Below are positions 835-22,027 of a stretch of 22,027 bases of DNA, one piece after another (position 1 is the first letter of the stretch; every line of letters starts with the position of its first letter). Position numbers and translations under genes: made by a program. The notes below the pieces were generated by a model. The model saw only the letters and a list, made by a program, of their open reading frames with translations. It was not told the origin of the DNA and did not search any database. Origin of the DNA: a virus. The stretch lies in the IMG/VR virus record IMGVR_UViG_3300037193_000647, positions 1 to 22,027 of that record; one strand, written 5' to 3'.

Positions 835-2284
835 ATGGCCCGCCTACGCCAGCTCGGCCGGTCAGGAGGCCATCGACCTGGCGGCCGTGGCCGGCCTGCA
901 CCTGGACCCGTGGCAGCAGCACGTGCTGACTCACGCCCTCGGCGAGCGCCCGGACGGCAAGTGGGCGGCGCCCAAGGTGTCGGTGTGGGTGCCCAGACAG
1001 AACGGCAAGGGCGCTCTCTTGGAGGCCCGCGAGCTGTGGGGGCTGTTCCTCGGGGGCGAGCGGCTGATCCTGCACAGCGCCCACGAGTACAAGACCGCCC
1101 AGGAGGCGTTCCTCCGCATCCGCGGGCTGATCGAGGGGACGCCCGACCTGGCCAAGCGGGTGCATCGCGTCTGGCAGGCCAACGGCGAACAGGGCATCGA
1201 GCTGACCCGCGCCGCCGGCGGGGGCCGGTTGCGGTTCGTGGCCCGGTCGAAGTCGAGCGGCCGGGGGTTCTCCGGGGACTGCATCATCCTGGACGAGGGC
1301 CAGGAGCTGACCGCGGACATCATGGCCGCGATGCTGCCCACCATGAGCGCCAGGCCCAACCACCAGCTGTGGATCTGCGGAACCCCGCCGAGCGACCCCG
1401 CCGCGTGGTGCTACGGCGTGCGCGACGACGGAGAGGCCGGCGCCGAGCGGCTGGCGCATTTCGACTGGGGCCAGGACATCGACCTGGCCGACCCTGCCGC
1501 GGTGCGCGCGGCCGTGGCCGACCGCTCGCTGTGGTACGCCGCGAACCCGTCGCTCGGCATCCGGATCACCGAGGAGACGGTGGAGGACGAGCTGGGGCCC
1601 TCGGGTCTCGGCCCTACGGTCACGTTCGCCATGGAGCGGCTCGGCGCCTGGCTGCCGCGGGCCGGCGATGGGCCGCGGGTGCTCGACATCAAGGCGTGGG
1701 AGCAGCTCATGGACGCCGGCTCTCGGGTGGGCGGCGCGTTCGCGCTCGCGGTGGACATCACGCCGAGCCGCGACAGCGCGTGCATCGGGGTCTACGGGTT
1801 GCGCGCCGATGGGCTCGGCCACGCCGAGATCATCGACCAGCGGCCGGGCACGGCGTGGCTCGTGGACCGTCTGGTGGAGCTGCGCGACCGGTGGAACCCG
1901 GTGGCCATCGCGGTGGACGCCAAGGGCCCTGCGGTGACCCTGCTCGAACCGCTGGAGAAGGCGGGCATCACGCGCCCGGAGGACCCCGAGGCTCCGCAGT
2001 ACGGAGACCTTGCGGTGCCCACCGCTCAGGACGTGGCCGCCGCGTGCGGCCAGCTCGCCGACGCGGTGACGCAGCAGGTTTTCCGGCACATCGGTCAGCA
2101 GATCCTCGCCGACGCGATCAGGGGGGCCGCCACGCGCCCGCTCGGCGATGCGTGGGCGTGGGCGCGGCGCATCAGCAGCGTGGATATCTCGCCGCTGGTG
2201 ACCGTGACGCTGGCCCGGTGGGCGTACCTGGCGCGGGCTCATCTGGTGGAGGACGACTACGACGTGGCGGACAGCTTCGGATAG
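779..2284 (+). CDS. terL: terminase large subunit (ATPase and nuclease)
   Basis: A 501-residue packaging motor protein that drives DNA into the prohead through the portal and cuts the concatemer. Visible motifs: an adenine-binding-like PWQQHVL near residue 44, Walker A PRQNGKG at 72-78, Walker B IILDEGQE at 169-176, and a C-terminal RNase H-like nuclease with acidic residues in LAVDITPSRDSA (D326) and IAVDAKGP (D380). A further Asp lies near 457 (GDAWAW). Length is usual for the family. The start is TTG 779, inside the small terminase gene, preceded by GGAGGTGAG at 8-base spacing. The next in-frame start, GTG 812, would leave Walker A intact but has a worse ribosome site. The stop is followed directly by the portal's ribosome site. 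Confidence 0.93.
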   Translation: MTISPPSARRGVQTPRVGRWPAYASSAGQEAIDLAAVAGLHLDPWQQHVLTHALGERPDGKWAAPKVSVWVPRQNGKGALLEARELWGLFLGGERLILHSAHEYKTAQEAFLRIRGLIEGTPDLAKRVHRVWQANGEQGIELTRAAGGGRLRFVARSKSSGRGFSGDCIILDEGQELTADIMAAMLPTMSARPNHQLWICGTPPSDPAAWCYGVRDDGEAGAERLAHFDWGQDIDLADPAAVRAAVADRSLWYAANPSLGIRITEETVEDELGPSGLGPTVTFAMERLGAWLPRAGDGPRVLDIKAWEQLMDAGSRVGGAFALAVDITPSRDSACIGVYGLRADGLGHAEIIDQRPGTAWLVDRLVELRDRWNPVAIAVDAKGPAVTLLEPLEKAGITRPEDPEAPQYGDLAVPTAQDVAAACGQLADAVTQQVFRHIGQQILADAIRGAATRPLGDAWAWARRISSVDISPLVTVTLARWAYLARAHLVEDDYDVADSFG

Positions 2285-2294
2285 GAGGTGATCC
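2284..2294 (+). promoter_or_regulatory. near-perfect Shine-Dalgarno site for the portal gene
   Basis: GGAGGTGATCC directly precedes GTG 2295. It matches almost the whole anti-Shine-Dalgarno tail of 16S rRNA, with six bases between GGAGG and the start. This decides the start at GTG 2295 over ATG 2304, which would be 15 bases from GGAGG. The first G of the site is the last base of the terminase TAG stop, so portal translation is probably coupled to terminase translation. Confidence 0.8.
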
Positions 2295-3506
2295 GTGGGC
2301 GTCATGAGCACGTTGCGCGGGTGGCTCTCGCGTGACGCCAACCTGACGACCCCCGAGCAACTCCTGGCCGATCGGCGGGCGCTGCGCACCGGGGGCGTGC
2401 ACGTCACCAACGACACGGCCATGAGGCACAGCGCGGTGTGGGCCTGCCTACGCTTGCGTGCCGACCTGGTATCGACCATGCCCGTGGACGTGTACCGGCG
2501 GATCAACGGGGTCCAGGTCGAGGTGTTCAAACCGCCGGTGCTGGTCAACCCGGGCGGGGAACGTGTGGGCCTGCTGGAGTGGCTCTACAGCACTCAGCTT
2601 GATCTGGACCGGGCGGGCAACGCGTTCGGGCTGATCACCGAGCGGTCGGGCGTGCTCGGGCCGGACGGCCGAGGGCTGCCGGCGCGCATCGACCTGCTGG
2701 CGCTGTCGGATGTGACCGTGCGCGCCACCGGCGCCGAGATCACCAAGTTCGTGGTTGCGGGTACGGAGTACGACCCGTGGGAGGTCTGGCACGAACGGCA
2801 GTTCACCGTCGCCGGTCTGCCGCTCGGCCTGTCGCCGGTCGCCTACGCCGCGTGGACGATCGAGGAGGCCCTGAACGCCCAGCAGTTCGCCCGCGACTGG
2901 TTCGGCGCCGGCGCGGTGCCGCTGGCCGAGCTGAAGAACACCGCCAAGAAGATCAACAAGGCTGAGGCGCAGATCGCCAAGGACCATTTCAAGGCGGCCG
3001 TGGCCAACGGTGACCTGTTCGTGCACGGCCACGACTGGGAGTACAAGCCGATCCAGGCCGTGGCCCAGCAGAGCGCTTTCATCGAGGCGCGCGAGTTCGC
3101 GCTGACCGACATCGCGCGGTTTTTCGGCGTTCCGGCCGACCTGATCGACGCGGCCGTGAGCACGGGCAGCATCACCTACGCGAGCATCACACAGCGCAAC
3201 CTCCAATTTCTGATCATGAATTTGGGGCCCGCGCTGACCCGCCGCGAGGACGCGCTGAGCCGCGGTCTCGTGCCAGGACCCCGGTACGTGAAGTTCAACC
3301 GCTCGGCCCTGCTGGCGATGGACCCCGAGGCCCGCGCCCGCACCATCCAGACGCAGATCAACTCCCGGACGCTCACGCCGAACGAGGCGCGCGAGCTGGA
3401 AGACCGCCCGCCGCTCACGGCCGAGCAGCTCGCTGAGTTCGACCGCGTATTCGGTGCCGCGCGCACGCAACCCACCACCGCCTCGGCAGGAGGAACGACC
3501 CCATGA
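2295..3506 (+). CDS. portal protein, HK97 family
   Basis: A 403-residue portal of the HK97 gp3-like family, which forms the dodecameric vertex through which DNA enters and leaves. The N-terminus (MSTLRGWLSRDA), HSAVWACLRLRADLVSTMP and VDVYRR (residues about 47-68), the central QFARDWFGAGAVPLAELK, and FFGVPADLIDAAVSTGSIT, then LGPALTRREDALSRGL, are all characteristic. Length matches the compact actinophage members of the family. The C-terminal tail past the portal core (about 370-403) is Thr/Ala rich and probably disordered. The gene overlaps the protease start by four bases (ATGA), the standard portal-protease-capsid order. Confidence 0.93.
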   Translation: MGVMSTLRGWLSRDANLTTPEQLLADRRALRTGGVHVTNDTAMRHSAVWACLRLRADLVSTMPVDVYRRINGVQVEVFKPPVLVNPGGERVGLLEWLYSTQLDLDRAGNAFGLITERSGVLGPDGRGLPARIDLLALSDVTVRATGAEITKFVVAGTEYDPWEVWHERQFTVAGLPLGLSPVAYAAWTIEEALNAQQFARDWFGAGAVPLAELKNTAKKINKAEAQIAKDHFKAAVANGDLFVHGHDWEYKPIQAVAQQSAFIEAREFALTDIARFFGVPADLIDAAVSTGSITYASITQRNLQFLIMNLGPALTRREDALSRGLVPGPRYVKFNRSALLAMDPEARARTIQTQINSRTLTPNEARELEDRPPLTAEQLAEFDRVFGAARTQPTTASAGGTTP

Positions 3507-4165
3507 ACGATCGAGCCGCCGCCGCGGCCGAGCGCGCCCGGCACGTCCGGCAGCGCTGCGACCGGCCGTCACAGCGCCGGTGCGCCGAGCATCCCGGCGC
3601 CCGCGCCGCCGCCCTGGTGCCCGCCCAGATCGAGGTCCGCGCGGCCGAGGGCGCCGAGGGCACGCTGGAGTTCCACGGCTACGCCTCGGCCTACGAGCGC
3701 GCCTACGAGATGTGGGACTACTGGGGGCCCTACACCGAGGTGGTGTCGGCCGGTGCCGGCGCCGAGAGCCTCGCGCGGGCCGACCTGGACGTGCCCCTGG
3801 TCCTTCAGCACGATCAGCTACGGCGCATCGCCCGCACGACCAATGGGACGTTGGACCTCAGCGAAGACGAGACGGGCTTGTCCGTGCGCGCCCTCGCGCT
3901 CGACATGAACGACGCGGACGTGGCCTACATCGTGCCCAAGCTGCGCGCGGGCCTGATCGACGAAATGTCGTTCGCCTTCAGGATCGAGGCCGGCCAGTGG
4001 TCCCCGGACTACACCGAGTACCGGATCGCCCGCTACGACATCCACCGGGGTGACGTGGCGATCGTCGGATTCGGCGCCAACCCCTACACCGAGGCGCACG
4101 CCCGCGCGCGGCCGACGTCGAGCCGCGCCCGCGCCCTGCTGGAAATCGCGCTCCAGAGCCGGTAG
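3503..4165 (+). CDS. HK97-type prohead protease (peptidase S78)
   Basis: A 220-residue maturation protease that removes scaffold sequence from the capsid protein and then degrades itself. The S78 core spans about residues 42-200: LEFHGYASAYE, PLVLQHDQL with catalytic-type His103, DEMSFAFR with catalytic-type Ser156, and HRGDVAIVGFGANPYT, where Asp184 lies near the position of the family's third catalytic acid. The first 40 residues are unusually basic and contain two Cys (residues 19 and 27), and may be a disordered or self-cleaved leader. The start overlaps the portal stop. A 250-base gap with strong inverted repeats separates it from the capsid gene. Confidence 0.9.
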   Translation: MNDRAAAAAERARHVRQRCDRPSQRRCAEHPGARAAALVPAQIEVRAAEGAEGTLEFHGYASAYERAYEMWDYWGPYTEVVSAGAGAESLARADLDVPLVLQHDQLRRIARTTNGTLDLSEDETGLSVRALALDMNDADVAYIVPKLRAGLIDEMSFAFRIEAGQWSPDYTEYRIARYDIHRGDVAIVGFGANPYTEAHARARPTSSRARALLEIALQSR

Positions 4166-4206
4166 CGCCTGACCCCCTGAACGCCCGCCGTCCCCGCGGG
4201 CCCCCC

Positions 4207-4266
4207 GCCCTGCTCGGCCACCCCCCTGGCCCCCCACTGCCCCCGGGTGCACTGGCCGAGCAGGGC
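4207..4266 (+). promoter_or_regulatory. large inverted repeat upstream of capsid gene
   Basis: GCCCTGCTCGGCCA (4207-4220) and TGGCCGAGCAGGGC (4253-4266) are perfect 14-bp complementary arms around a 32-base C-rich loop. No T-tract follows, so it is not a textbook intrinsic terminator. It starts 41 bases after the protease stop and ends 149 bases before the capsid start. A role in RNA stability, partial termination or processing is inference. Confidence 0.7.
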
Positions 4267-4276
4267 CCCACACTCT

Positions 4277-4302
4277 CCCGCCCGGACTACTCCCCGGGCG
4301 GG
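4277..4302 (+). promoter_or_regulatory. second stem-loop upstream of capsid gene
   Basis: CCCGCCCGG (4277-4285) pairs with CCGGGCGGG (4294-4302) across an 8-base loop. It stands ten bases after the larger repeat. The all-GC 9-bp stem is strong but has no T-run after it. The remaining sequence to the capsid ribosome site (4303-4400) shows no promoter I can support. Confidence 0.65.
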
Positions 4303-4415
4303 CTGCCCTACGCATCGCGCGCACGAGCCCATCCGGCGCCACGCCTCGGATGGCCGTCCGACCTGACCGCACGGGGCGTCACGAGATCCCATCGAGCACG
4401 ACAGGAGATCGAGCT

Positions 4416-5801
4416 ATGACGCTCGCCCAGATGATCGAGCAGGCCCGTACGGCCCTCCAGACCGCCATCGCCGCCCGCCAGCAGGCCCAGGACGCCCTCA
4501 TGGCGCTACGGGAAGACCCCGCGCTGACCGAGGAGGCCGTGGCCGAGCGGGTCACCGCCCGGGACGCGGCCGACGCCGAGGTGACCCGCCGCCAGGATGC
4601 CCTCGCCGCCCTGGAAGCCGAGCAGGCCCGCGAGGAGGAGATCGCCCAGCTCTCGCAGCGCGTCACCCCGACCGGGGCCCGCACGCCTGGCCAGGACCGC
4701 CGCATCCGCGTGGGCGCCGAGGAGCGCACCTACCGGCCCGACCTGGACGCGCGCGGCCAGAGCTTCGAGCGCGACGTGACCGCAGCGTTCCTGGGCGACT
4801 ACGAGGCCCAGGAGCGCCTCGCCCGGCACATGCGCGAGGAGCGCGCCGAGCGCGGCGAGCAGCTACAGCGCGCGGTCGGCACCGGCGCGTTCACCGGCCT
4901 GGTGGTGCCCCAGTACCTCACCGACATGTACGCGCCCGCCGCCGCCGCCCGCCGGCCGTTCGCGGACGCGTGCCGGCAGCATGGCCTGCCGCCGTCCGGC
5001 ATGACCGTGAACATCTCGCGGATCACCACGGCGTCGTCGGTCGCGCTCCAGGCGGCCGAGAACGACGCGGTCAGCGAGACGAACATGGACGACACCCTGC
5101 TGACCATCGCGGTGCAGACCGCTGGCGGCCAGCAGACGATCTCCCGCCAGGCGATCGAGCGCGGCACGGGGATCGAGCCGGTCGTCCTGGACGACCTGTT
5201 CCGCCGGTACGCCACCAACCTGGACAGCACGCTGATCAACCAGGCCACCACCGGCCTGTCGGCCGCCGCCACCGCGGTGACCTACACCGACGCCAGCCCG
5301 ACCGCGGCCGAGGCATACCCCAAGATCATTCAGGGGTTGTCCGAGGTGGAAGCCGCGATGCTGGACCAGGCGAGCGGAGACAACATCGCCGTCATGCACT
5401 CGCGCCGCTGGTACTGGCTCCAGGCCGCGATGGGCAGCACATGGCCCATGATCACGCAGCCCGGCATCGTGGAACAGACGCTCGGCGCCAACTTCGCGAC
5501 CGCCTACGGCCGCGGCGTGCGCGGCGTCCTGCCCAACGGCACGCCGGTCATCGTTGACAACAACATCGCGACCAACCTCGGCGCCGGCACCAACGAGGAC
5601 GAGATCTACCTGGTGGACCGCATGGAGTGCCACCTGTGGGAGGACCCCTCCGCGCCGATGTTCATCCGGGCCGAGCAGCCGAAAGCGGCCAACCTCGGCG
5701 TGCTGCTCGTGGTGTACGGCTACTTCGCCTACACCTTCACCCGCTACGCCCACTCGCGCAAGGTGTCCGGCACCGGCCTGGTGACGCCGACCTTCGCGTA
5801 A
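4416..5801 (+). CDS. major capsid protein, HK97 fold, with N-terminal scaffold domain
   Basis: A 461-residue capsid protein. Residues 1 to about 82 form a charged, heptad-like Ala/Glu/Arg coiled coil (MIEQARTALQ through EEEIAQLSQR), equivalent to the HK97 delta scaffold domain that the protease removes. The mature shell part begins somewhere after residue 85. Typical HK97-fold elements follow: RAVGTGAFTGLVVPQYLTD, MTVNISRI, QTISRQAIERG (spine-helix region), a long axial domain, GVLPNGTPVIVDNNI, and a C-terminal FTRYAHSRKVSGTGLVTP. ATG 4416 is chosen because CAGGAG precedes it at good spacing and the coiled coil starts there. The in-frame ATG at 4350 lacks such a site. Expected to be the most abundant late protein, it is flanked on both sides by stem-loops. 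Confidence 0.92.
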   Translation: MTLAQMIEQARTALQTAIAARQQAQDALMALREDPALTEEAVAERVTARDAADAEVTRRQDALAALEAEQAREEEIAQLSQRVTPTGARTPGQDRRIRVGAEERTYRPDLDARGQSFERDVTAAFLGDYEAQERLARHMREERAERGEQLQRAVGTGAFTGLVVPQYLTDMYAPAAAARRPFADACRQHGLPPSGMTVNISRITTASSVALQAAENDAVSETNMDDTLLTIAVQTAGGQQTISRQAIERGTGIEPVVLDDLFRRYATNLDSTLINQATTGLSAAATAVTYTDASPTAAEAYPKIIQGLSEVEAAMLDQASGDNIAVMHSRRWYWLQAAMGSTWPMITQPGIVEQTLGANFATAYGRGVRGVLPNGTPVIVDNNIATNLGAGTNEDEIYLVDRMECHLWEDPSAPMFIRAEQPKAANLGVLLVVYGYFAYTFTRYAHSRKVSGTGLVTPTFA

Positions 5802-5809
5802 CCCGAGCA

Positions 5810-5847
5810 GCCCCGACCCGCCTGGCTCCCTGGGGGCGGGTCGGGGC
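5810..5847 (+). terminator. terminator-like stem-loop after capsid gene
   Basis: GCCCCGACCCGCC (5810-5822) pairs perfectly with GGCGGGTCGGGGC (5835-5847) over a 12-base loop, starting nine bases after the capsid stop. There is no T-tract, so it may act as a weak terminator or as a 3' barrier to exonucleases that raises capsid mRNA. The next gene has its own good ribosome site. Confidence 0.65.
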
Positions 5848-5871
5848 CCCCACCAACAGGAGATCGAACCG

Positions 5872-6126
5872 ATGCCGGAAGAACTGGAGCCGGACAGCAG
5901 CGAACGCCCGCCGCGCGAGCCGATCAGCGACGACCGCATGGTGGCCGCCCTGCTGCGCGAGCGCGAGGGGTACGTCCGGCGCGGGCTCACCGAACGGGTG
6001 GCCGCGGTGGACGAGCAGATCAAGCGCCGCGGCGGCACCCCGCCCAAGGACGGGCCACCGCCCAAGCAGGAGACCACCGACACCAAGCCTCGCGGCCGGC
6101 GCCCGCCCGGCAAGAGCCGCACGTAA
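5872..6126 (+). CDS. small helical protein downstream of capsid, unknown function
   Basis: An 84-residue protein of a kind often found just after the capsid gene in actinophages. A short acidic and proline-containing start leads to one predicted helix (MVAALLREREGYVRRGLTER, continuing VAAVDEQIKRRG, about residues 24-55), then a basic, proline-rich tail (about 57-84) likely to be disordered. No enzyme motif is visible. Placement suggests a head or neck accessory role; that is inference. Its leader ACAGGAGATCGA (5856-5867) is identical over 12 bases to the leader of the capsid gene. Confidence 0.75.
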   Translation: MPEELEPDSSERPPREPISDDRMVAALLREREGYVRRGLTERVAAVDEQIKRRGGTPPKDGPPPKQETTDTKPRGRRPPGKSRT

Positions 6127-6144
6127 CGAGGAGGCGGCCGAGGC

Positions 6145-6735
6145 ATGGCGAACGAGTACAGCGACCGGGCCACGCTGAAACTGGCGCTCGGGATCACAGA
6201 CGGTGCCCGGGACGCTCTGCTGGACAAGGCCCTCACGGCCGCCTCGCGCGCGATCGACCGGCAGACCGGCCGGCGGTTCTGGCTGGACAGCTCGGCCAGC
6301 GCGCGGGTCTTCAGCCCGCACGGCCGCGTAGTCCGCGACGACCGCGGAGAGCTGTTCCTGATCGACGACCTGGGCGCCGCCGACGCCCTGGTGGTCGAGG
6401 TCGGCACGCCAGGCTCGTGGACCGCGGTCACGGACTATGAGACGTGGCCCGATAACGCGCTGACCAAGGGCGAGCCCATCACAGGGCTGTTGCTGCCTAC
6501 CGGGTTCTGGGGCACCGACCGCACCCGGGTGCGCGTCACCGAGAGGTGGGGCTGGCCGGCCATCCCTGACGAGATCGAGCAGGCCGCACGCCTTCAGGCC
6601 GGGCGCCTGTACCGGCGCAAGGACTCCCCCGAGGGCGTGGCCGGCAGCGCTGAGTGGGGCCTGATCCGGGTTCCCCGTCTGGACCCCGACGTGCTCGCGC
6701 TGATCGAGCCCTACACGCTGCCCGGCTTCGCCTGA
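6145..6735 (+). CDS. head-tail connector (gp6-like adaptor)
   Basis: A 196-residue protein resembling the HK97 gp6 and SPP1 gp15 adaptor group that docks on the portal and extends the DNA channel. The N-terminus (YSDRATLKLALGITDGARDALLDKAL) and TAASRAIDRQTGRRFW (residues about 31-46) are the usual helical opening. A beta-rich middle follows (FLIDDLGAADALVVEVGTPG), then RVRVTERWGWPAIPDEIEQA and ARLQAGRLYRRKDSPEGVAG, the conserved C-terminal helix and turn. GAGGAGG precedes ATG 6145. Position after the capsid and before the tail genes agrees. Confidence 0.85.
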   Translation: MANEYSDRATLKLALGITDGARDALLDKALTAASRAIDRQTGRRFWLDSSASARVFSPHGRVVRDDRGELFLIDDLGAADALVVEVGTPGSWTAVTDYETWPDNALTKGEPITGLLLPTGFWGTDRTRVRVTERWGWPAIPDEIEQAARLQAGRLYRRKDSPEGVAGSAEWGLIRVPRLDPDVLALIEPYTLPGFA

Positions 6736-6748
6736 TGAGGAGGACCCC

Positions 6749-7003
6749 ATGAGTCATGTCGTGTACGCCCGAGTCGATACCACCGTGGTGTGGTCAGGCG
6801 GCATCTCCCCCATCACCGTGGGCGAGGTGTGGGACAGCGAGGCCAAGCTGGTCACCGAGCGTCCCGAGCTGTTCTCGGCCGAGCCGACCAGGGTCCGCGG
6901 GCGGGTGGCTCGGCCGCCGGCGGCCACAACCCCGGACACCTGCTCTGAGCCGCAGGAACAGGCCCGAGTCGTCGACAAGACCCGCCGAAAGGGCGCTGAC
7001 TGA
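6749..7003 (+). CDS. small conserved phage protein, possible neck component
   Basis: An 84-residue protein. The opening (VVYARVDTTVVWSGGISPI) and GEVWDSEAKLVTERPELFS (about residues 26-44) match a small protein often found in this place in actinophage genomes. Its biochemical role is not known to me. The C-terminal 40 residues are Pro/Arg/Thr rich and look disordered. It sits where a head-closure or stopper gene is often found, but no sequence signature supports that role. GAGGAGGACCCC precedes the start. Its TGA stop overlaps the next ATG by one base. Confidence 0.65.
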   Translation: MSHVVYARVDTTVVWSGGISPITVGEVWDSEAKLVTERPELFSAEPTRVRGRVARPPAATTPDTCSEPQEQARVVDKTRRKGAD

Positions 7004-7431
7004 TGGAACCGGGCGCGATCCGCGAGGCGCTCGCCACCGCCGTGCGCGACGCCATCCCGGTGCTGAACTGTTTCGGCTACTGCCCGGACTCGATCCCCGA
7101 GCCGTGTTTCTACGCGGGCGAGGTCGAGATCGATTTCGACCGGGCATTCGGCCGAGGCATGGACGAGATGCGGGTGACGTGCCGGCTGCTCGTCTCGCGC
7201 GCCGACGACAAGAGCGGCCAGGCCGCGCTGGACGGCTACCTGGCCGGTTCGGGTCCGCTCTCGGTGAAAGCCGCCATCGAGGCCGCTCGCGGGGCGCCCG
7301 GTCAGCCCGCCCTCGGCGGGCTGTGCGATGACCTCCACCTGATGCGCGTGCAGGGCTACCGCATGTACCAGGTGGGCGAGGTCCAGTTCTACGGCGCCGA
7401 GCTGATCGTGCGCATCATCGGAGAGGGGTGA
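7003..7431 (+). CDS. probable tail terminator protein
   Basis: A 142-residue alpha/beta protein of the sort placed just before the tail tube in actinophages. It has an N-terminal helix (AIREALATAVRDAI), a hydrophobic strand ending YCPDSIPEPCFY, then EVEIDFDRAFGRGMDEMRVT followed by CRLLVSRADDKSGQAALDGY and LAGSGPLSVKAAIE. The IDFDRAFGRGMDE stretch is conserved in homologues I recall, some annotated as tail terminator. Tail terminators cap the tube and join it to the head. The assignment rests on general resemblance and position, so another neck role is possible. It is linked to its neighbours by a one-base overlap upstream and a three-base gap downstream. Confidence 0.6.
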   Translation: MEPGAIREALATAVRDAIPVLNCFGYCPDSIPEPCFYAGEVEIDFDRAFGRGMDEMRVTCRLLVSRADDKSGQAALDGYLAGSGPLSVKAAIEAARGAPGQPALGGLCDDLHLMRVQGYRMYQVGEVQFYGAELIVRIIGEG

Positions 7432-7434
7432 CCC

Positions 7435-8187
7435 GTGGCCAAGACGGTCCTGCTCAACACGCGCATTTTCGCGGCCGGCGCCGACCTGACCAGCAGATCC
7501 AACAAGGTGGAGTTGAGCTGCGAGGTCGAGGACAAGGACGCCACCAGCTTCCGCGCGGCCGACGACCCGGACGCCGGGTGGAAGGAACTGCTCGGCGGTC
7601 TGGCCTCAACAGCGATCAGCGGCGCGGGCCAATGGGAAGCCGGCGACCCTGGCATGGTCGATGACATGGCGTGGACCAACCTCGCCGGGCGCACCGCGCA
7701 CCCGTGGACGGTCTGCCCGCTGTCGGCCGCGGTGGGTGAGCTGGCCTACTCAAGCTCGGGCCTGATCACCTCCTACAAGCTCGGCGAGGCCGTGGGCGAG
7801 GTCGCCCCATGGGAAGCACAGGCCAAGGGCTCGGGCCTGCTCGTGCGCGGCAGCGTGGCGCACCCGCCGGGTACCGCCCGCACCGCCAGCGGCAACGGGA
7901 CCGGGCTCAACCTCGGCGCGCTGACCGCCTCGCAACGGCTGTTCGCCTCGCTGCACGTGCTGTCCGCCACGGGCACCACGCCGAGCCTGACCGTGCGGGT
8001 GGAGTCCGACGCGGACGACACGTGGGCCTCGCCGACGACCCGCGCGACGTTCGCCGCGGCCACGGCCGCCGGCGGGCAGTCCGCCGAGGTGTTGGGCGCG
8101 GTCACGGACACCTGGTGGCGGGTCGCCTGGACGATTTCGGGCACGTCGCCGTCGTTCTTGTTCGTCGCCTCGCTCGGCATCGCCTGA
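7435..8187 (+). CDS. tail tube protein A, with extra C-terminal domain
   Basis: A 250-residue tail tube-like protein starting at GTG 7435. Residues 1 to about 142 align with the whole of the second tube protein at 8369: MAKxVLL, AGxDLxxRxxK, ELxxExEDKDxTxF, WKExLGGLAS, a central VDxxxW, and a closing GxAVGxVA. Residues about 143-250 (GTARTASGNGTGLNLGALTA to the end) form an added beta-rich domain with LFASLHVLSA, LTVRVESDAD and WWRVAWTISG, likely displayed on the tube surface like the extra domains of some other siphophage tail proteins. A four-stem-loop region follows its stop. Confidence 0.8.
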   Translation: MAKTVLLNTRIFAAGADLTSRSNKVELSCEVEDKDATSFRAADDPDAGWKELLGGLASTAISGAGQWEAGDPGMVDDMAWTNLAGRTAHPWTVCPLSAAVGELAYSSSGLITSYKLGEAVGEVAPWEAQAKGSGLLVRGSVAHPPGTARTASGNGTGLNLGALTASQRLFASLHVLSATGTTPSLTVRVESDADDTWASPTTRATFAAATAAGGQSAEVLGAVTDTWWRVAWTISGTSPSFLFVASLGIA

Positions 8188-8333
8188 CCGCCCGCACCCG
8201 GGCGGGCACGCATGGCGCCCGGAAGACGCGCGGCCGAAGGCCGCACCTTCTACCTGACCCGCCCTCGGCCTCGCGCGACCGCGCCAGCGTGCGCGGTGAG
8301 AGTGCGGCCGACAGGCGCGTGGCCGCAGGCCAC
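8188..8333 (+). promoter_or_regulatory. cluster of four stem-loops between the two tail-tube genes
   Basis: Four separate inverted repeats occupy most of this 181-base gap: CCGCCCG/CGGGCGG (8188-8194, 8199-8205), GCGGCC/GGCCGC (8230-8235, 8239-8244), ACCGCGC/GCGCGGT (8278-8284, 8291-8297) and GTGGCC/GGCCAC (8319-8324, 8328-8333). The first begins on the base after the stop codon of tube protein A. None has a T-tract. The second and fourth share GGCCGNAGGCC. No convincing coding frame runs through the gap. A regulatory RNA role is inference. Confidence 0.65.
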
Positions 8334-8368
8334 ACCGCTTATCCGCTCTTCCCGTAAGGAGGGCCCCC

Positions 8369-8785
8369 GTGGCCAAGATGGTGCTTCTGGCAGCTCACCT
8401 GACCCTCGCCGGCAATGACCTATCGGACCGCTGCTCCAAGATCGAACTCACGGCCGAGATCGAGGACAAGGACGTGACCACGTTCGCGTCGCTCGGCTGG
8501 AAGGAGGTGCTCGGCGGGCTCGCGTCGGGCACGCTGGCGATCCAGTTCAAGAACGATTACGCGGCCACCGAGGTGGACAGCATCATGTGGCCGCTGTTCC
8601 TGACGCGCACTCCGCAGACGTTCGCCGTGCGCGCGGACAACGCCGCAGTTGGCACGTCGAACCCGAGCTACTCCGGCAGCGTGCTGATCAAGGAGTGGAA
8701 GCCGATCGCCGGCGCGGTGGGCGACGTGGCCGAGGCCGAGGTGTCCTATCCCACCTCGGGCGCGGTCACCCGGGCCACCGCCTGA
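8369..8785 (+). CDS. tail tube protein B (short paralogue)
   Basis: A 138-residue protein with the features of compact actinophage tail tube proteins: MAKMVLLAAHLTLAGNDLSD, ELTAEIEDKDVTTFASLGW, VLGGLASGTLAIQFKNDYAA, VDSIMWPLF, NPSYSGSVLIKEWKPIAGAV and AEAEVSYPTSGAVTR. It is the minimal form of the fold also found in residues 1-142 of the preceding gene. It lacks a four-residue segment of that protein near residue 42 and its C-terminal domain. GTG 8369 has a strong site (TAAGGAGGG). Which of the two forms the bulk of the tube cannot be read from sequence; B has the more standard length. Confidence 0.82.
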   Translation: MAKMVLLAAHLTLAGNDLSDRCSKIELTAEIEDKDVTTFASLGWKEVLGGLASGTLAIQFKNDYAATEVDSIMWPLFLTRTPQTFAVRADNAAVGTSNPSYSGSVLIKEWKPIAGAVGDVAEAEVSYPTSGAVTRATA

Positions 8786-8788
8786 GCC

Positions 8789-9292
8789 ATGCCCGTACAG
8801 CTGACCATCGAGCAGCGGGCCCTGCTGGAGCTCGGCCGGGCGCTCAGGCGTGAGGCGGACGGCAAGGAGCTGCGCAGAGACCTGATCCGCGAGCTGAAAA
8901 AGCCGCTCGCCCCTGCGGTGGCCGAGATCAAGTCGGGCGTCATGGCGATCGGCGCCGGCGGGCTACCGCCGGGCGAGGGCGAGCCGCTCCGCTCGGCGGT
9001 CGTCCGGCGCATCCGCGCGGAGGTCAAGCTGTCCGGCCACGCCATCGGCGTGCGGGTACGCGCCCGCAAGACCGAGGCCGTACGCGGGTTCAGGCACGCG
9101 CCCAAGCGGCTCAACAGCCCGAAGGGGTGGCGCCACCCGGTGCACGGCCACCGCAACCTGTGGGTGGTCCAGTTCGGCAACCCGAACTACTTTGATCGGC
9201 CGCTGGAGGGGCGCCGGTCGGAGTTCCGCGGCGCGGTCCTGGAGGCCATGGAGGCCACCGCCCGCCGCATCCGTATCCGGATCTTGTTCTAG
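8789..9292 (+). CDS. HK97 gp10-like tail completion or neck protein
   Basis: A 167-residue basic protein. The N-terminal helices (LLELGRALRREADGKELRRD), the Gly-rich turn (GAGGLPPGEGEPLRSAVVRR), and the C-terminal WRHPVHGHRNLWVVQFGN followed by YFDRPLE match the HK97 gp10-like family, where a W-[RK]-HPV-[FWH]-G motif, a W-V-x-Q motif and a PYF-like motif recur. The family acts in tail completion or head-tail joining, though its exact role is not settled. It lies after both tube genes rather than before the tail terminator, a less usual order. No clear Shine-Dalgarno site lies before ATG 8789, three bases after the previous stop, so translation is probably coupled. Confidence 0.7.
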   Translation: MPVQLTIEQRALLELGRALRREADGKELRRDLIRELKKPLAPAVAEIKSGVMAIGAGGLPPGEGEPLRSAVVRRIRAEVKLSGHAIGVRVRARKTEAVRGFRHAPKRLNSPKGWRHPVHGHRNLWVVQFGNPNYFDRPLEGRRSEFRGAVLEAMEATARRIRIRILF

Positions 9293-9305
9293 GTGAGGAC
9301 AACCA

Positions 9306-9779
9306 ATGATCATTACCTACCGCCCAGAGGACGGCACCGAGCTGGCCTGGGAGTTCGATCCGACCCGTGTCCGCGCGAGCCGCGCCGAGATGATCGAGAA
9401 GCGGGCCGGCGAGAGCTGGGAAGCCTGGCTGATGGGCGTCCAGCAGGGCAACATGCGCGCCCGCCGGGTGCTGCTCTGGCACCTGATGAGCATGCCCCAC
9501 CCGGGCATGCGCTACGAGGACACCCCGGATTTCTACGCGGGCGAACTCGAGGTCAAGCACACCAGGGCCGAGCTGGCCGAGATGCGCGACCGCGTCGTCA
9601 AGGCGGGCCTGCCCGACGAGCAGGTGGCGCAGGTCCTCGCGGTCATCGACATGGAGATGGCCGCCGCGCCCGGTGCCGAGGCCGAGGGAAAAGCCCCCTC
9701 GCCGAACGGCGCGAGCACTACCAGTGGGCGATCTCCGAGGTCCTCGGCATCCGCCCGTGGGAGCAGCGCGAACGCCTGA
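9306..9779 (+). CDS. tail assembly chaperone, short form (G-like)
   Basis: A 157-residue zero-frame product equivalent to lambda gpG, which keeps the tape measure soluble and recruits tube subunits; such chaperones are absent from the finished virion. The ordered part runs from IITYRPEDGTELAWEFDPTR through SWEAWLMGVQQGNMRARRVL and DEQVAQVLAVIDMEM (about residue 118). After the slippery site at codons 127-129 the frame turns into Ser/Ala/Arg low complexity and stops, as expected when that part is only a by-product. GGTGAGGA precedes ATG 9306. The neighbour downstream is the tape measure, the standard arrangement. Confidence 0.85.
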   Translation: MIITYRPEDGTELAWEFDPTRVRASRAEMIEKRAGESWEAWLMGVQQGNMRARRVLLWHLMSMPHPGMRYEDTPDFYAGELEVKHTRAELAEMRDRVVKAGLPDEQVAQVLAVIDMEMAAAPGAEAEGKAPSPNGASTTSGRSPRSSASARGSSANA

Positions 9780-9853
9780 CGGTGGACGAGCTGCTCGCCG
9801 CTTGCGACTACATCGAAGAGCTCCACCGGCAGGCCAAGCAGGCCAAGAACTGA
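9306..9853 (+). CDS. tail assembly chaperone, frameshifted long form (GT-like)
   Basis: A product of -1 programmed frameshifting at GGGAAAA. Zero-frame codons 9306-9692 give 129 residues; reading then resumes at base 9692 in the -1 frame for 53 more residues, 182 in total, ending at the TGA at 9851-9853. The T-like extension reads SPLAERREHYQWAISEVLGI followed by RPWEQRERLTVDELLAACDY and ends HRQAKQAKN. The pattern 'W-x-x-SEVLGIRPWEQ ... LTVDEL' is what tail chaperone T domains in actinophages look like. In lambda the G/GT ratio is needed for correct tail assembly. The T frame has no start of its own with a ribosome site, which supports expression by frameshifting. Confidence 0.85.
9686..9692 (+). 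promoter_or_regulatory. -1 ribosomal frameshift site GGGAAAA
   Basis: The zero-frame reading is G GGA AAA, a canonical X XXY YYZ heptamer close to lambda's GGGAAAG. Seven bases downstream CGCC (9700-9703) pairs with GGCG (9708-9711) around a GAAC-type loop, extendable with a small bulge (CTCGCC to GGCGCGAG), a plausible stimulatory hairpin. Confidence 0.85.
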
Positions 9854-9871
9854 AGAGGGCGAGGTGACACC

Positions 9872-12781
9872 GTGTCGGACACCTCGCTGCTTTTCAGCAT
9901 CCTGGCCAGGTCGAACCTGTCGCGGCTGCTCGCGCGTGAGGCCCTCGCGGTCCGCGCGTTCAACGCCACGCTGGGAACCGCCGGGCGGACCACCATCGGC
10001 AGCGCGGTGGGCGCGACCAAGGCCGTGGGCGTGCTCGGCGCGGTCGGCGCGGGCGCGTTCGCGGGCCTGTCGGTCGGTATCGCCGGCGTCGGTCTCGGCA
10101 TCGCCGGGATCGGCATCGCCGCCGCGGCCACCTCCAAGGAGGTCAAGGACGCGTTCAAGGACCTGGGCGCGGACGCCAAGTCCGCCGTGGTCGAGGCCGC
10201 CAAGCCGCTGGTGCCCGTGCTCACCAACGTGGCCAGCCAGGCCCGTACCCTGCTCGGCCCCTTGCAGAGCAGCCTGTCCAGCGCGTTCACCTCGCTGGCG
10301 CCCGCACTGAAGGACCTGACCTCTGGACTGGTCGCAGGTCTGCGTCCGGTGATCGCCAGTTTCGGGCCCATCGCGCAGGCCGTGGCGCCGCTGATCTCGG
10401 CCATCGGGGCCGGGCTCAAGCCGGTGCTGGCCGGGCTCGCCAGCACCTTGACCATGGTCGCCCAGACTGCGGGCCAGTTCGCCCCCCAGCTTGAACAGAT
10501 GTTCCAGGGGCTCGGGCAGATCATGACCGCGCTCGGCCCGCTGCTGGCCGGGTTGATCCAGATGGGCGCCCCGGTGATCGGCCCCCTGCTGTCCCTGGTC
10601 GGGCAGCTCGCCACCTCCCTGGGCGCCACCCTGCAACCGGTGATGGCGCAGCTTGGCCCGATCCTGGCCCAGGCGATGACCGCGCTGGGGCCTCTGGTGG
10701 CCGCGTTCGGCCAGCTCATCGCCGCTGTGGCGCCGCTGATTCCGCCGATCGCGCAGCTCGGAGCGTCCCTGATCGGCGCCCTGGTGCCTGCCCTGACCCC
10801 GCTGCTGGCCGTGGTCGGCCAGGTGGCACAGCAGTTCCTCGGCGCGCTGCTGCCCGCCATCCAGCCCTTGATCCCGATCGTGGGGCAGATCGCCGGTGTG
10901 CTCGCCGGCGTGCTCGGCCAAGCCCTGATCATGATCATGGGGGCGGCGACGCCGCTGCTGCCGGTGCTGTCGCAGCTCGTCCAGACCGTGGGCGCCGCCC
11001 TGCTGTCCGCCCTGCGTCAGCTCGCACCGGCGATCATGCCGGTGGTGTCTGCCGTGCTCGGCCTGCTGCCCGCGTTCATGCCGCTGCTGCCTGTGATCGG
11101 GCAGCTCGTTCAAGCTCTGCTCCCGCCGCTGGTGGCCCTGGTCCAGGCCGTCGCGCCGGTCCTGGCCACTCTGGTGACGTCGTTCGGTCAGCTACTCGGA
11201 GCCATTCTGCCGATCATCCCACCTTTGGCTGAGCTGGTCGTGGCGATCTCGCCGCTGCTGACCATGCTGGCCGAGCTGGTCGGGTGGCTGCTCGGCAAGC
11301 TCGTGCCCATCCTGTCAACGGTGATCGGCTGGATAGCTCAGCTCGCCTCGGTGATCGTCGGAGCGCTGTCCGCCGCGATCCGGTGGCTGATCGCCAACGT
11401 GCCGACCGCGTGGGAAGCGGTGAAGTCCGCCATCGGCCGCGCCGTGTCCGCCATCGGCGGGATCATCTCCTGGTTCGGAAGCCTGCCAGGCAAGATCGGC
11501 GCGTGGTTCACCGGCGCCAAGAACGCCGCAGTCAACGCGTGGAACGCCCTGCTCGCGTGGATCAAGGGCGTACCCGGGCGGATCCTGTCCGGGCTCGGGA
11601 ACCTCGGCTCGCTGCTGGTCGGTGTTGGCCGCAACCTCGTCCAGGGACTCGTCAACGGCATCCGCAACATGGCCAGCGCGGCGGTCAACGCCGCCCGGGG
11701 GGTAGTGTCCGACGCCGTCGCCTCGGCCAAGAACCTGCTCGGCATCTCCTCGCCGTCACGGGTGTTCACCTGGATTGGCCGCATGACCGGCAAGGGCCTG
11801 GTCAAGGGCCTGACCGGCTCGCTGGCCGAGATCAAGTCAGCGGCCAAGAAGATGAGTGACACGATCATCCAGGCGTGGGAGCGGGGCCGCATCTCCCGAG
11901 CCCGCGCCTCAAGCCTGCTGACCATCGTGGACCGGCAGAACACCCGCCTGAAGACGCTCGCTACCCAGCGAGACAGCATCATCAAGCGGATCGCCGACGC
12001 AAAGAAGCTGGCCGAGACCGTCGCGGGCAACACCGCCAGCTCGGCCGCCATCACGTCGATGGACTTCGGCGGGCGCCGCGTCACCGCCGGCGGCATCCAA
12101 GCCCGCCTCGCCGCCAAGCTCGGCCGAATCCAGCGGTTCGCCAGCGTGGTCAAGCAGCTCGCCGCCAAGGGCCTGAACAAGGCCCTGCTACGCCAGGTCA
12201 TCGAGGCCGGCCCCGACGAAGGGCTACCGCTCGCCGAGGCCCTCCTGTCCGCTGACGCGGGCATGCTCGCCTCGATCAACAGCGCTCAGTCCGCAATCGA
12301 CAGCTCATCCAAGAGCCTCGGCCTGACCGCAGCGGACGCGCTCTACGACTCGGGCCGGCAAGCCGGGCGCGGGTTCCTGGCCGGGCTGCTCGCCCAGCAG
12401 AAGGGCATCGAGGCCGCCATGGACAAGCTCGCCAAGACCCTGGTCACGCGCATCCGCAAAGCCCTCAAGATTAAGTCTCCGTCGCAGGTGATGGCCGAGG
12501 CCGGCGTGATGTCCGGCGCAGGCTTCATCTCCGGCGTCCTTTCCACGCTCGCCGGTGTCGGGACCGCCGGCGAGCGTCTGGCCGGCGCGGCGGTGCCCTC
12601 TGGGACTGCCAGAGGCCGCCCGGTCACCTCTCCTCCCCCGCGGGGTGCTGGCGGGGGAGGAGAGATCATCGTCCGTCTCGTGGCAGACGGGGCGCAAACC
12701 GAGATGCTCCGCATGCTCCGCAACATGGTCCGGATCGAGGGCCGCGGCAACGTCCAGATCGCGTTCGGGAAAGCGAGGTGA
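9872..12781 (+). CDS. tape measure protein
   Basis: A 969-residue protein that sets tail length and occupies the tube lumen before DNA ejection. Residues 47-86 are strongly hydrophobic and Gly/Ala rich, like a membrane-spanning segment. Residues about 105-505 are an unusual run of hydrophobic helical repeats of the kind P-[LIV]-[LIVM]-x-x-[LIV]-x-Q-[LIV] (for example PLLSLVGQL at 238 and PLLPVIGQL at 404). Residues 505-600 resemble the Trp-containing segment seen in many tape measures (AWEAVKSAIG, AVNAWNALLAWIKG). Two SPS elements, GISSPSRVF (624-632) and IKSPSQVM (867-874), each lead into a GxxxGxGxxxG pattern. A helical region fills 650-860. No lysozyme or peptidase motif is visible. The start is GTG 9872 after GCGAGGTGA. 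At the usual 0.15 nm per residue the tail would be about 145 nm (inference). Confidence 0.92.
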   Translation: MSDTSLLFSILARSNLSRLLAREALAVRAFNATLGTAGRTTIGSAVGATKAVGVLGAVGAGAFAGLSVGIAGVGLGIAGIGIAAAATSKEVKDAFKDLGADAKSAVVEAAKPLVPVLTNVASQARTLLGPLQSSLSSAFTSLAPALKDLTSGLVAGLRPVIASFGPIAQAVAPLISAIGAGLKPVLAGLASTLTMVAQTAGQFAPQLEQMFQGLGQIMTALGPLLAGLIQMGAPVIGPLLSLVGQLATSLGATLQPVMAQLGPILAQAMTALGPLVAAFGQLIAAVAPLIPPIAQLGASLIGALVPALTPLLAVVGQVAQQFLGALLPAIQPLIPIVGQIAGVLAGVLGQALIMIMGAATPLLPVLSQLVQTVGAALLSALRQLAPAIMPVVSAVLGLLPAFMPLLPVIGQLVQALLPPLVALVQAVAPVLATLVTSFGQLLGAILPIIPPLAELVVAISPLLTMLAELVGWLLGKLVPILSTVIGWIAQLASVIVGALSAAIRWLIANVPTAWEAVKSAIGRAVSAIGGIISWFGSLPGKIGAWFTGAKNAAVNAWNALLAWIKGVPGRILSGLGNLGSLLVGVGRNLVQGLVNGIRNMASAAVNAARGVVSDAVASAKNLLGISSPSRVFTWIGRMTGKGLVKGLTGSLAEIKSAAKKMSDTIIQAWERGRISRARASSLLTIVDRQNTRLKTLATQRDSIIKRIADAKKLAETVAGNTASSAAITSMDFGGRRVTAGGIQARLAAKLGRIQRFASVVKQLAAKGLNKALLRQVIEAGPDEGLPLAEALLSADAGMLASINSAQSAIDSSSKSLGLTAADALYDSGRQAGRGFLAGLLAQQKGIEAAMDKLAKTLVTRIRKALKIKSPSQVMAEAGVMSGAGFISGVLSTLAGVGTAGERLAGAAVPSGTARGRPVTSPPPRGAGGGGEIIVRLVADGAQTEMLRMLRNMVRIEGRGNVQIAFGKAR
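12628..12664 (+). repeat. perfect 14-bp inverted repeat inside the tape measure gene
   Basis: CTCTCCTCCCCCGC (12628-12641) and GCGGGGGAGGAGAG (12651-12664) flank a 9-base loop. The repeat encodes a Pro/Gly-rich linker (TSPPPRGAGGGGEI) near the tape measure C-terminus, about 115 bases before its stop codon. The arms are almost pure pyrimidine and purine. The structure would be very stable in RNA. Confidence 0.75.
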
Positions 12782-21814: not shown

Positions 21815-21822
21815 TCATGCAG

Positions 21823-21873
21823 ACGGCCGCCGGTCGCGCCCTCCTCCGACGGGGCACGACCGGCGGCCGTTTC
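21823..21873 (+). terminator. second terminator-like stem-loop with short T-tail
   Basis: ACGGCCGCCGGTCG (21823-21836) pairs with CGACCGGCGGCCGT (21857-21870), a perfect 14-bp stem. Inner bases GCCC (21838-21841) and GGGC (21852-21855) can extend it past one mismatch, and TTT at 21870-21872 follows. Together with the preceding stem-loop this makes a double terminator at the operon end. It could also serve a convergent transcript from the right. Confidence 0.72.
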
Positions 21874-21887
21874 TGCTGTGTCCGCGA

Positions 21888-22027
21888 GCGGTGGGCGAGC
21901 GCCCCGGCAAGCGGTGGGCGAGCGCCCCGGCAAGCGGTGGGCGAGCGCCCCGGCAAGCGGTGGGCGAGCGCCCCGGCAAGCGGTGGGCGAGCGCCCCGGC
22001 AAGCGGTGGGCGAGCGCCCCGGCAAGC
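21888..22027. repeat. 23-bp perfect tandem repeat, six copies, open at window end
   Basis: Units begin at 21888, 21911, 21934, 21957, 21980 and 22003, all identical, and two bases of a seventh unit end the window. Each unit starts GCGGTGGGCGAG and ends CCCCGGCAA, is 19/23 G+C, and holds the self-complementary GGGCGAGCGCCC. The period is not a multiple of three, so the array is non-coding. There are no unique spacers, so it is not a CRISPR array. Confidence 0.9.

Follow-up and report, generated by a model that had tools for sequence, protein, structure and literature searches.

A conserved leader element, probably acting as RNA, and a 3' hairpin flank the major capsid gene in the late operon of a viral contig and its actinobacterial relatives

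A virion takes hundreds of copies of its capsid protein but about a dozen of some other proteins from the same operon, and to our knowledge it is poorly understood, outside a few models, how tailed phages set these ratios. The question is raised by IMGVR_UViG_3300037193_000647, a linear viral record of 71% GC from IMG/VR, of which positions 1 to 22,027 (22 kb; hereafter 'the window') contain a packaging, head and tail operon. Comparison with PHROG and Pfam identified a terminase, a portal, an S78-type prohead protease, an HK97-type major capsid protein, a head-tail adaptor, a tail terminator and two paralogous tail-tube proteins. The nearest relatives, prophages as well as viral contigs, come from Nonomuraea, Thermocatellispora, Acrocarpospora and Streptomyces, and among the isolated phages of the phage collection none has a capsid closer than ~35% identity to that of the window. 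Here we describe two structures that flank the capsid gene, a leader element of 75 nucleotides (nt) and a hairpin just past the stop codon, both of which are conserved, constant in position and specific to the capsid gene. We consider it somewhat probable that through these the capsid cistron is set apart within the late polycistronic mRNA, giving a capsid output that differs from that of its neighbours.

All features of the window given below lie on the + strand. The capsid gene (4416..5801) matches PHROG 2263 (E=1e-55), and residues 1 to ~95 of its product form the N-terminal delta (scaffold) domain. Its ATG at 4416 is preceded by a ribosome-binding stretch, AGGAGATCGAGCT (4403..4415, by direct reading), that is not part of the conserved leader element. 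A first-pass annotation of this DNA had claimed tight packing of the operon with three exceptions, and the table of open reading frames (ORFs) bears this out, with gaps of 250 nt before the capsid gene (4166-4415), 70 nt after it (5802-5871) and 181 nt between the two tube genes (8188-8368), and nearly all other gene spacings falling between -25 and +23 nt. The stem-loops it had named were likewise located, two before the capsid gene, one after it and, in the minimum free energy (MFE) fold, about four between the tube genes. Compared with dinucleotide shuffles, the 250-nt and 181-nt gaps are exceptionally stable (z = -3.98 and -3.49 respectively; 0/200 shuffles as stable). The 70-nt gap by itself is ordinary for its composition (z = -0.96, 37/200 shuffles as stable), so that its conservation is visible only by comparison with relatives.

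Neither of the stem-loops before the capsid gene proved to be the principal feature of that gap. The first, a perfect stem of 14 base pairs (bp) with a 32-nt loop (4207-4220/4253-4266), is missing from most relatives and was ruled out as the key element, being seen only in the window and one close relative, L257. The other, a 9-bp GC hairpin (4277-4285/4294-4302), has a counterpart in most relatives, CCCGCC-NNN-GGCGGG, which directly follows the protease stop codon and shows some paired changes. Hence the gap is structured, as had been claimed, but its conserved feature is the 75-nt element at 4303-4380, immediately 3' of this hairpin, which had been overlooked.

In relatives, the gap between protease and capsid genes is ~137 nt long and terminates in this strongly conserved element, for which alignments and a covariance model predict a 4-bp closing helix, P1 (4305-4308/4374-4377 in the window), and a long interrupted hairpin, P3 (4323-4357), carrying an invariant GGCGC...GCCTCG near its tip. 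The element sits ~35 nt 5' of the capsid start in the window, and among relatives its core ends 28-37 nt before the start, leaving the ribosome site outside the element. Invariant unpaired stretches occur in CGCACGAG and in GGCGC...GCCUCG. The first alignment comprised 32 unique copies with few gaps and was built without a structure model; 99.8% of its cells pair in the P1 and P3 structure, and three pairs are compensated. A covariance model made from these copies retrieved more divergent ones, giving a combined set of 60 (56 distinct), in which 99.4% of cells pair and changes on both sides are seen at 8/17 pairs (28 cells); this larger alignment is model-made and leans towards its structure, whereas the 32 copies were aligned independently of the model. 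None of 500 shuffles reaches the observed covariation, a count that is not a probability because the copies are kin, and sliding the partners by 1-3 columns leaves only 0-2 pairs.

The leader core is non-coding, since its lengths fall in all three mod-3 classes and stops occur in all three frames. Readthrough or fusion of the protease into the capsid was ruled out, as the two genes of the window are in different frames and gap lengths among relatives fall in all mod-3 classes; an upstream ORF in the leader was also ruled out, the ATG of some family members (GCCATGCCTCGGGTGGCCGTCTGA) being missing from others and from the window. Among the 4227 families of Rfam, the leader region of the window was unmatched even at E up to 5, and six relatives were unmatched at the gathering threshold. 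Searching the phage collection with the element by blastn gave no match, and no described capsid-leader RNA was found in the open literature searched. With a conserved structure, a constant position and orientation and a non-coding sequence, the leader has the attributes of a cis-regulatory RNA motif and appears to be a structured RNA without earlier cataloguing.

The element is confined to one place in the genome. The covariance model gave one strong match, at the capsid gene, in each of six actinobacterial genomes (8-11 Mb), and a chance-level match only in a seventh, Lentzea. A search of 394 genomes of the class and 298 from the Streptomyces family gave four matches, two of them seeds and two new, the latter also before a capsid gene. 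A scan of IMG/VR with a DNA pattern returned 59 stretches, and in 59/59 the pattern lies directly before a capsid gene; 54 of these are new, with the capsid start 55-64 nt past the pattern, and the remaining five had already been fetched via their capsid and carry the element in the leader. Furthermore, the element was found in 36/37 tested loci that encode the window's type of delta domain (delta-A), the exception being L278. L176 (- strand, capsid start near 4214) is a chimera that combines the leader element and a delta-domain homologue (39% identical) with a mature capsid that is only 34% identical.

At the other end of the gene, a 13-bp exact stem (14 pairs including the next one) at 5810-5822/5835-5847 begins 8 nt past the capsid stop codon and has no U-tract. 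To survey such hairpins, the 75 nt behind each late-gene stop was taken from all fetched relatives, windows more than 80% alike were removed, and the longest stem and the folding z against shuffles were recorded. Behind the capsid gene, a stem of at least 9 bp is present in 87% of 103 non-redundant windows (9.5% of shuffles), with a median length of 14 bp, a median start 8 nt after the stop and a mean z of -3.6. Behind the portal, protease, adaptor, tail terminator, tube A, tube B and two small genes such stems occur in 4-26%, with z from -0.8 to +0.2. The post-capsid stem sequences differ almost completely between relatives, some stems being richer in AT, and it is therefore structure and position that are conserved. 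Since the structures flanking the capsid gene are kept while sequences diverge widely, the comparison supports the view that selection acts on structure around this gene.

The 3' hairpin is unlikely to be a classical intrinsic terminator. Its stem is stable and GC-rich, as in that class, but the U-tract expected directly 3' is absent: the tail behind 5810-5847 reads CCCCACCA, the 8 nt 3' of the stem are 50% C and 17% T across relatives, and only 1/89 tails contains at least five T. A terminator scan of the window did not list the 5810-5847 hairpin. It looks rather like an RNA 3'-end or processing hairpin. Among mapped transcript ends of Streptomyces clavuligerus, a stable hairpin without a U-rich tail was found at 353 and with one at 182, the U-less ends being interpreted either as I-shaped terminators or as the 3' ends of transcripts terminated by Rho (PMC8269248). 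The window hairpin shares with that HS-U-lack class (353 mapped ends) a stable GC-rich stem without a U-tail (PMC8269248), and differs from it in being a predicted hairpin conserved after one particular gene inside an operon.

Comparable hairpins occur in better known phages. In the HK97 record (NC_002167), annotated putative terminators follow the major head gene and flank the major tail gene, at places like those of the window. T-rich tails follow the HK97 stems behind the head gene and ahead of the tail gene, whereas the tail of the window hairpin is C-rich. Unlike the window, HK97 has only 2 nt between protease and head gene and so no space for a leader element. A strong hairpin right after the capsid gene is also present in phiC31, TM4 and the Omega-, Typha- and Bipper-like phages, and in TM4 and Che8 gaps with hairpins surround the major tail gene. 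The sequences of these actinobacteriophage hairpins differ from those of the window, a structured gap before the capsid is found in some only, and the 75-nt element in none examined. The conserved post-capsid hairpin is a sound part of what the first-pass annotation found, and is of an already known kind.

What stands in place of the leader element elsewhere bears on its possible partner. Relatives with a different delta domain lack the 75-nt element and have at the same place small hairpins with a fixed loop, usually two, of the form stem-[CAGAUNNC]-stem (the CAGAU-loop). Among 56 leaders scored, from all clades with more distant capsids, 22 carry two such hairpins and one carries three; at least two are seen in ~1% of random 220-nt windows of the same loci. 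Chosen by loop alone, the hairpins have stems that covary, with changes on both sides at 6/6 pairs and 0/500 shuffles reaching the covariation score, and 10/11 records contain one to three CAGAU-loop sites. Loop-loop kissing of the CAGAUCGC hairpins was considered and dropped, loop variants CAGAUGAC and CAGAUACC being without the GAUC palindrome. The Omega-, Typha- and Bipper-like mycobacteriophages, whose capsids are ~30-35% identical to that of the window, have the leader motif CCC[UGGCACU]GGG; each 76-109-kb genome has exactly two perfect copies of it, and both precede the capsid gene. In 10/10 IMG/VR stretches with tandem copies of this motif, a homologous capsid is encoded on the same strand, the match beginning 11-153 nt past the motif. 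A Mycobacterium abscessus prophage has GCCC[NGCUC]GGGC twice (a single case, by reading).

Tandem CCCTGGCACTGGG hairpins, exactly two to a mycobacteriophage genome and lying 5' of the capsid gene, were seen in the capsid leaders of L213, L215, L216 and L217 and in L286-L295; L287 has a third, variant copy with an altered stem (GGCC/GGCC), and L293 at least three copies. The tandem hairpins of cluster J are not mentioned in the paper on that cluster (PMC3706429).

That one homologous place is occupied by different RNA designs suggests a partner encoded by the phage, which changes with the capsid clade. Tentatively, and as a possibility we rate below the dosage reading given at the outset, HK97-fold capsid genes of actinobacterial phages might carry a general and previously undescribed class of leader RNA operators, unrelated in design and alike in place, each read by a cognate phage protein that matches capsid synthesis to assembly. 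The designs would include the 75-nt element, tandem stem-[CAGAUNNC]-stem, tandem CCC[UGGCACU]GGG and perhaps the GCCC[NGCUC]GGGC pairs.

For the capsid cistron of the window, the mechanism we propose has an upstream and a downstream part. The structures would act as RNA: the P1 and P3 leader element would be bound or cut by a specific factor that sets the amount of capsid made from the cistron, and the U-less GC hairpin ~8 nt past the stop would define or protect the 3' end of the capsid mRNA. That end may arise by processing, or by termination of the Rho-dependent or pause type with subsequent exonuclease trimming. Together, leader and hairpin would uncouple capsid output from that of the operon neighbours. 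Conservation of the leader in both sequence and structure, and its occurrence only before capsid genes, point to specific recognition and not to generic stabilising stems. The factor that recognises it is most likely a phage-encoded protein, because other capsid clades have different, clade-specific hairpins at the same place. Several observations weigh against this reading. The folding energy of the leader core as a single sequence is ordinary (z ~0), and the argument accordingly depends on conservation and covariation; nor does the leader fold clearly sequester the ribosome site, so that a direct on/off translational switch is not apparent from it. Moreover, leader and delta domain are adjacent, so their co-occurrence may reflect physical linkage, and the delta domain that accompanies the leader is acidic (pI 4.6, charge -6.5), a point against direct binding of the RNA by the capsid protein itself.

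The last two points bear also on autogenous control, in which the leader would be bound by capsid protein not yet assembled, acting via its scaffold-like delta domain, or by the neighbouring prohead protease, and capsid translation would be repressed until assembly consumes the protein. Phage autogenous translational operators include the MS2 coat hairpin, the T4 gp32 and RegA sites and that of the P22 scaffold, and the P22 scaffolding protein controls its own synthesis. Like these operators, the window leader is a small structured site just 5' of a start codon with fixed loop bases and variable stems; unlike them, it ends 35 nt before the start, and its candidate binding domain is acidic. The leader type tracks the delta-domain type in all but one of the delta-A loci tested, the L176 chimera retains both beside a divergent mature capsid, TM4 and Che8 encode the scaffold separately and have a hairpin-bearing gap before the scaffold gene, and the repeated fixed-loop hairpins of other clades resemble protein operators. 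Yet all three clades examined have acidic delta domains (pI 4.6-5.2), and phiC31 has a cleaved N-terminal part with merely an 11-nt gap before its capsid gene, and on the whole we regard autogenous control as rather unlikely. Considerably less likely is that these are generic 5' and 3' stabilisers of mRNA, for which any stable stem would suffice and the conserved leader sequence would reflect recent common descent. The 3' hairpin, with its structure kept and its sequence free, fits this well, but unpaired leader stretches (in CGCACGAG and GGCGC...GCCUCG) are invariant though the neighbouring hairpins and gap sequences of relatives have turned over, and the leader stays with a capsid only 34% identical.

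We give slightly less credence still to RNA-based or N-like antitermination of the lambda nut or HK022 put type, by which leader hairpins would modify RNA polymerase to read through downstream hairpins such as the post-capsid one. Tandem fixed-loop hairpins of phage-specific sequence are similar to the nut/put layout, and a strong hairpin does lie 3' of the capsid gene; however, the sites lie deep in the late operon, before one gene only, nowhere else in the genome and not behind known promoters, an upstream antiterminator would cancel the neighbouring hairpin, and the downstream hairpins have no U-tract. Least likely is an element acting as DNA, such as an internal promoter or a recombination or packaging site. 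Compensatory changes are also expected in a DNA cruciform, and a position before the most needed protein would suit a promoter; against this, the element has always one orientation and a near-fixed distance to the start codon, its conserved core contains no AT-rich -10-like hexamer (by direct reading), and a sigma-70 scan of 2000-12000 was empty, a weak test at 71% GC. As for the stabilising, processing or partial termination put forward in the first-pass annotation, the comparisons argue against a classical terminator, which would have a U-tract, and against generic leader stabilisers, given a conserved, capsid-only leader sequence; a processing or 3'-end role for the 3' hairpin fits. Unequal gene dosage, which that annotation took to be the purpose of the structures, is plausible.

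The structures had been claimed to bracket the tube genes as well as the capsid gene, and here the two part company: around the capsid gene structure is kept in relatives of divergent sequence, while the gap between the tube genes is specific to its lineage. The tube genes (7435-8187 and 8369-8785) encode tandem paralogous proteins, the first with an extra C-terminal part, and are adjacent in most relatives. The intervening gap (8188..8368), with about four stems by MFE folding, is ~180 nt long in the window and its two closest relatives, L099 and L100, which alone share the long version; it measures 55-90 nt in ~30 non-redundant relatives and 4-15 nt in others. In the 55-90-nt class the sequence is conserved and includes an inverted repeat rich in GC, and the ribosome site lies within CCCTGAAAGGGGG. 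RNAalifold on the inter-tube gap of relatives gave 3 weak pairs, no compensatory change and no conserved fold, so that the covariation proposed as a check for these gaps is found in the capsid leader and not between the tube genes. Gene ends behind tube A and tube B exceed shuffles only modestly, and a general RNA bracket around the tube genes is not supported by these comparisons. Local translational control of the second tube gene is possible, a small hairpin being predicted at 8345..8364 (MFE and direct reading) that pairs its Shine-Dalgarno stretch, AAGGAGGG, with an upstream CTCTTCC. The inter-tube repeat GGCCGAAGGCCGCACCTTCTA was ruled out as a dispersed host repeat, as it occurs only in two viral relatives, twice in each, and in none of four host genomes. 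The ~200-nt gap before tube A in relatives was ruled out as noncoding; by reading, it appears to hold an uncalled positional counterpart of the small ORF at 6749.

Other features of the window and its relatives were observed in passing. Directly 3' of the capsid hairpin, 5872-6126 encodes a small basic protein (84 amino acids, pI 9.7) of unassigned function that is kept in both capsid clades and for which Pfam and PHROG gave no match. Programmed frameshifting in the tail-assembly chaperone gene is usual in siphophages; in the window this gene (9306-9779) contains the slippery heptamer GGGAAAA at 9686-9692, and the shifted frame would end at 9853, so that the likely frameshift product occupies most of an apparent 92-nt gap at 9780-9871. 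Two strong hairpins close the operon, the second at 21820-21873 and followed by TTTC; behind them the end of the record (21865-22027) is filled by ~7 head-to-tail copies of a 23-nt unit, GAGCGCCCCGGCAAGCGGTGGGC, an array that may be either a true repeat or the end of an assembly. The head and tail module of the window also occurs on two 34-kb plasmid-deposited records, the linear plasmid pFP3 of Streptomyces sp. F2 (L296) and a record of Streptomyces sp. NBC_01335 (H53), both of which look like phage-plasmids.

The capsid genes of a large phage group would thus carry a compact, specific, clade-swapped RNA element, joined by a hairpin at the 3' end, and this would make the question of how gene ratios are set directly testable by reporter. 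The leader element, if it acts as proposed, also adds a structured RNA family that is missing from public libraries.

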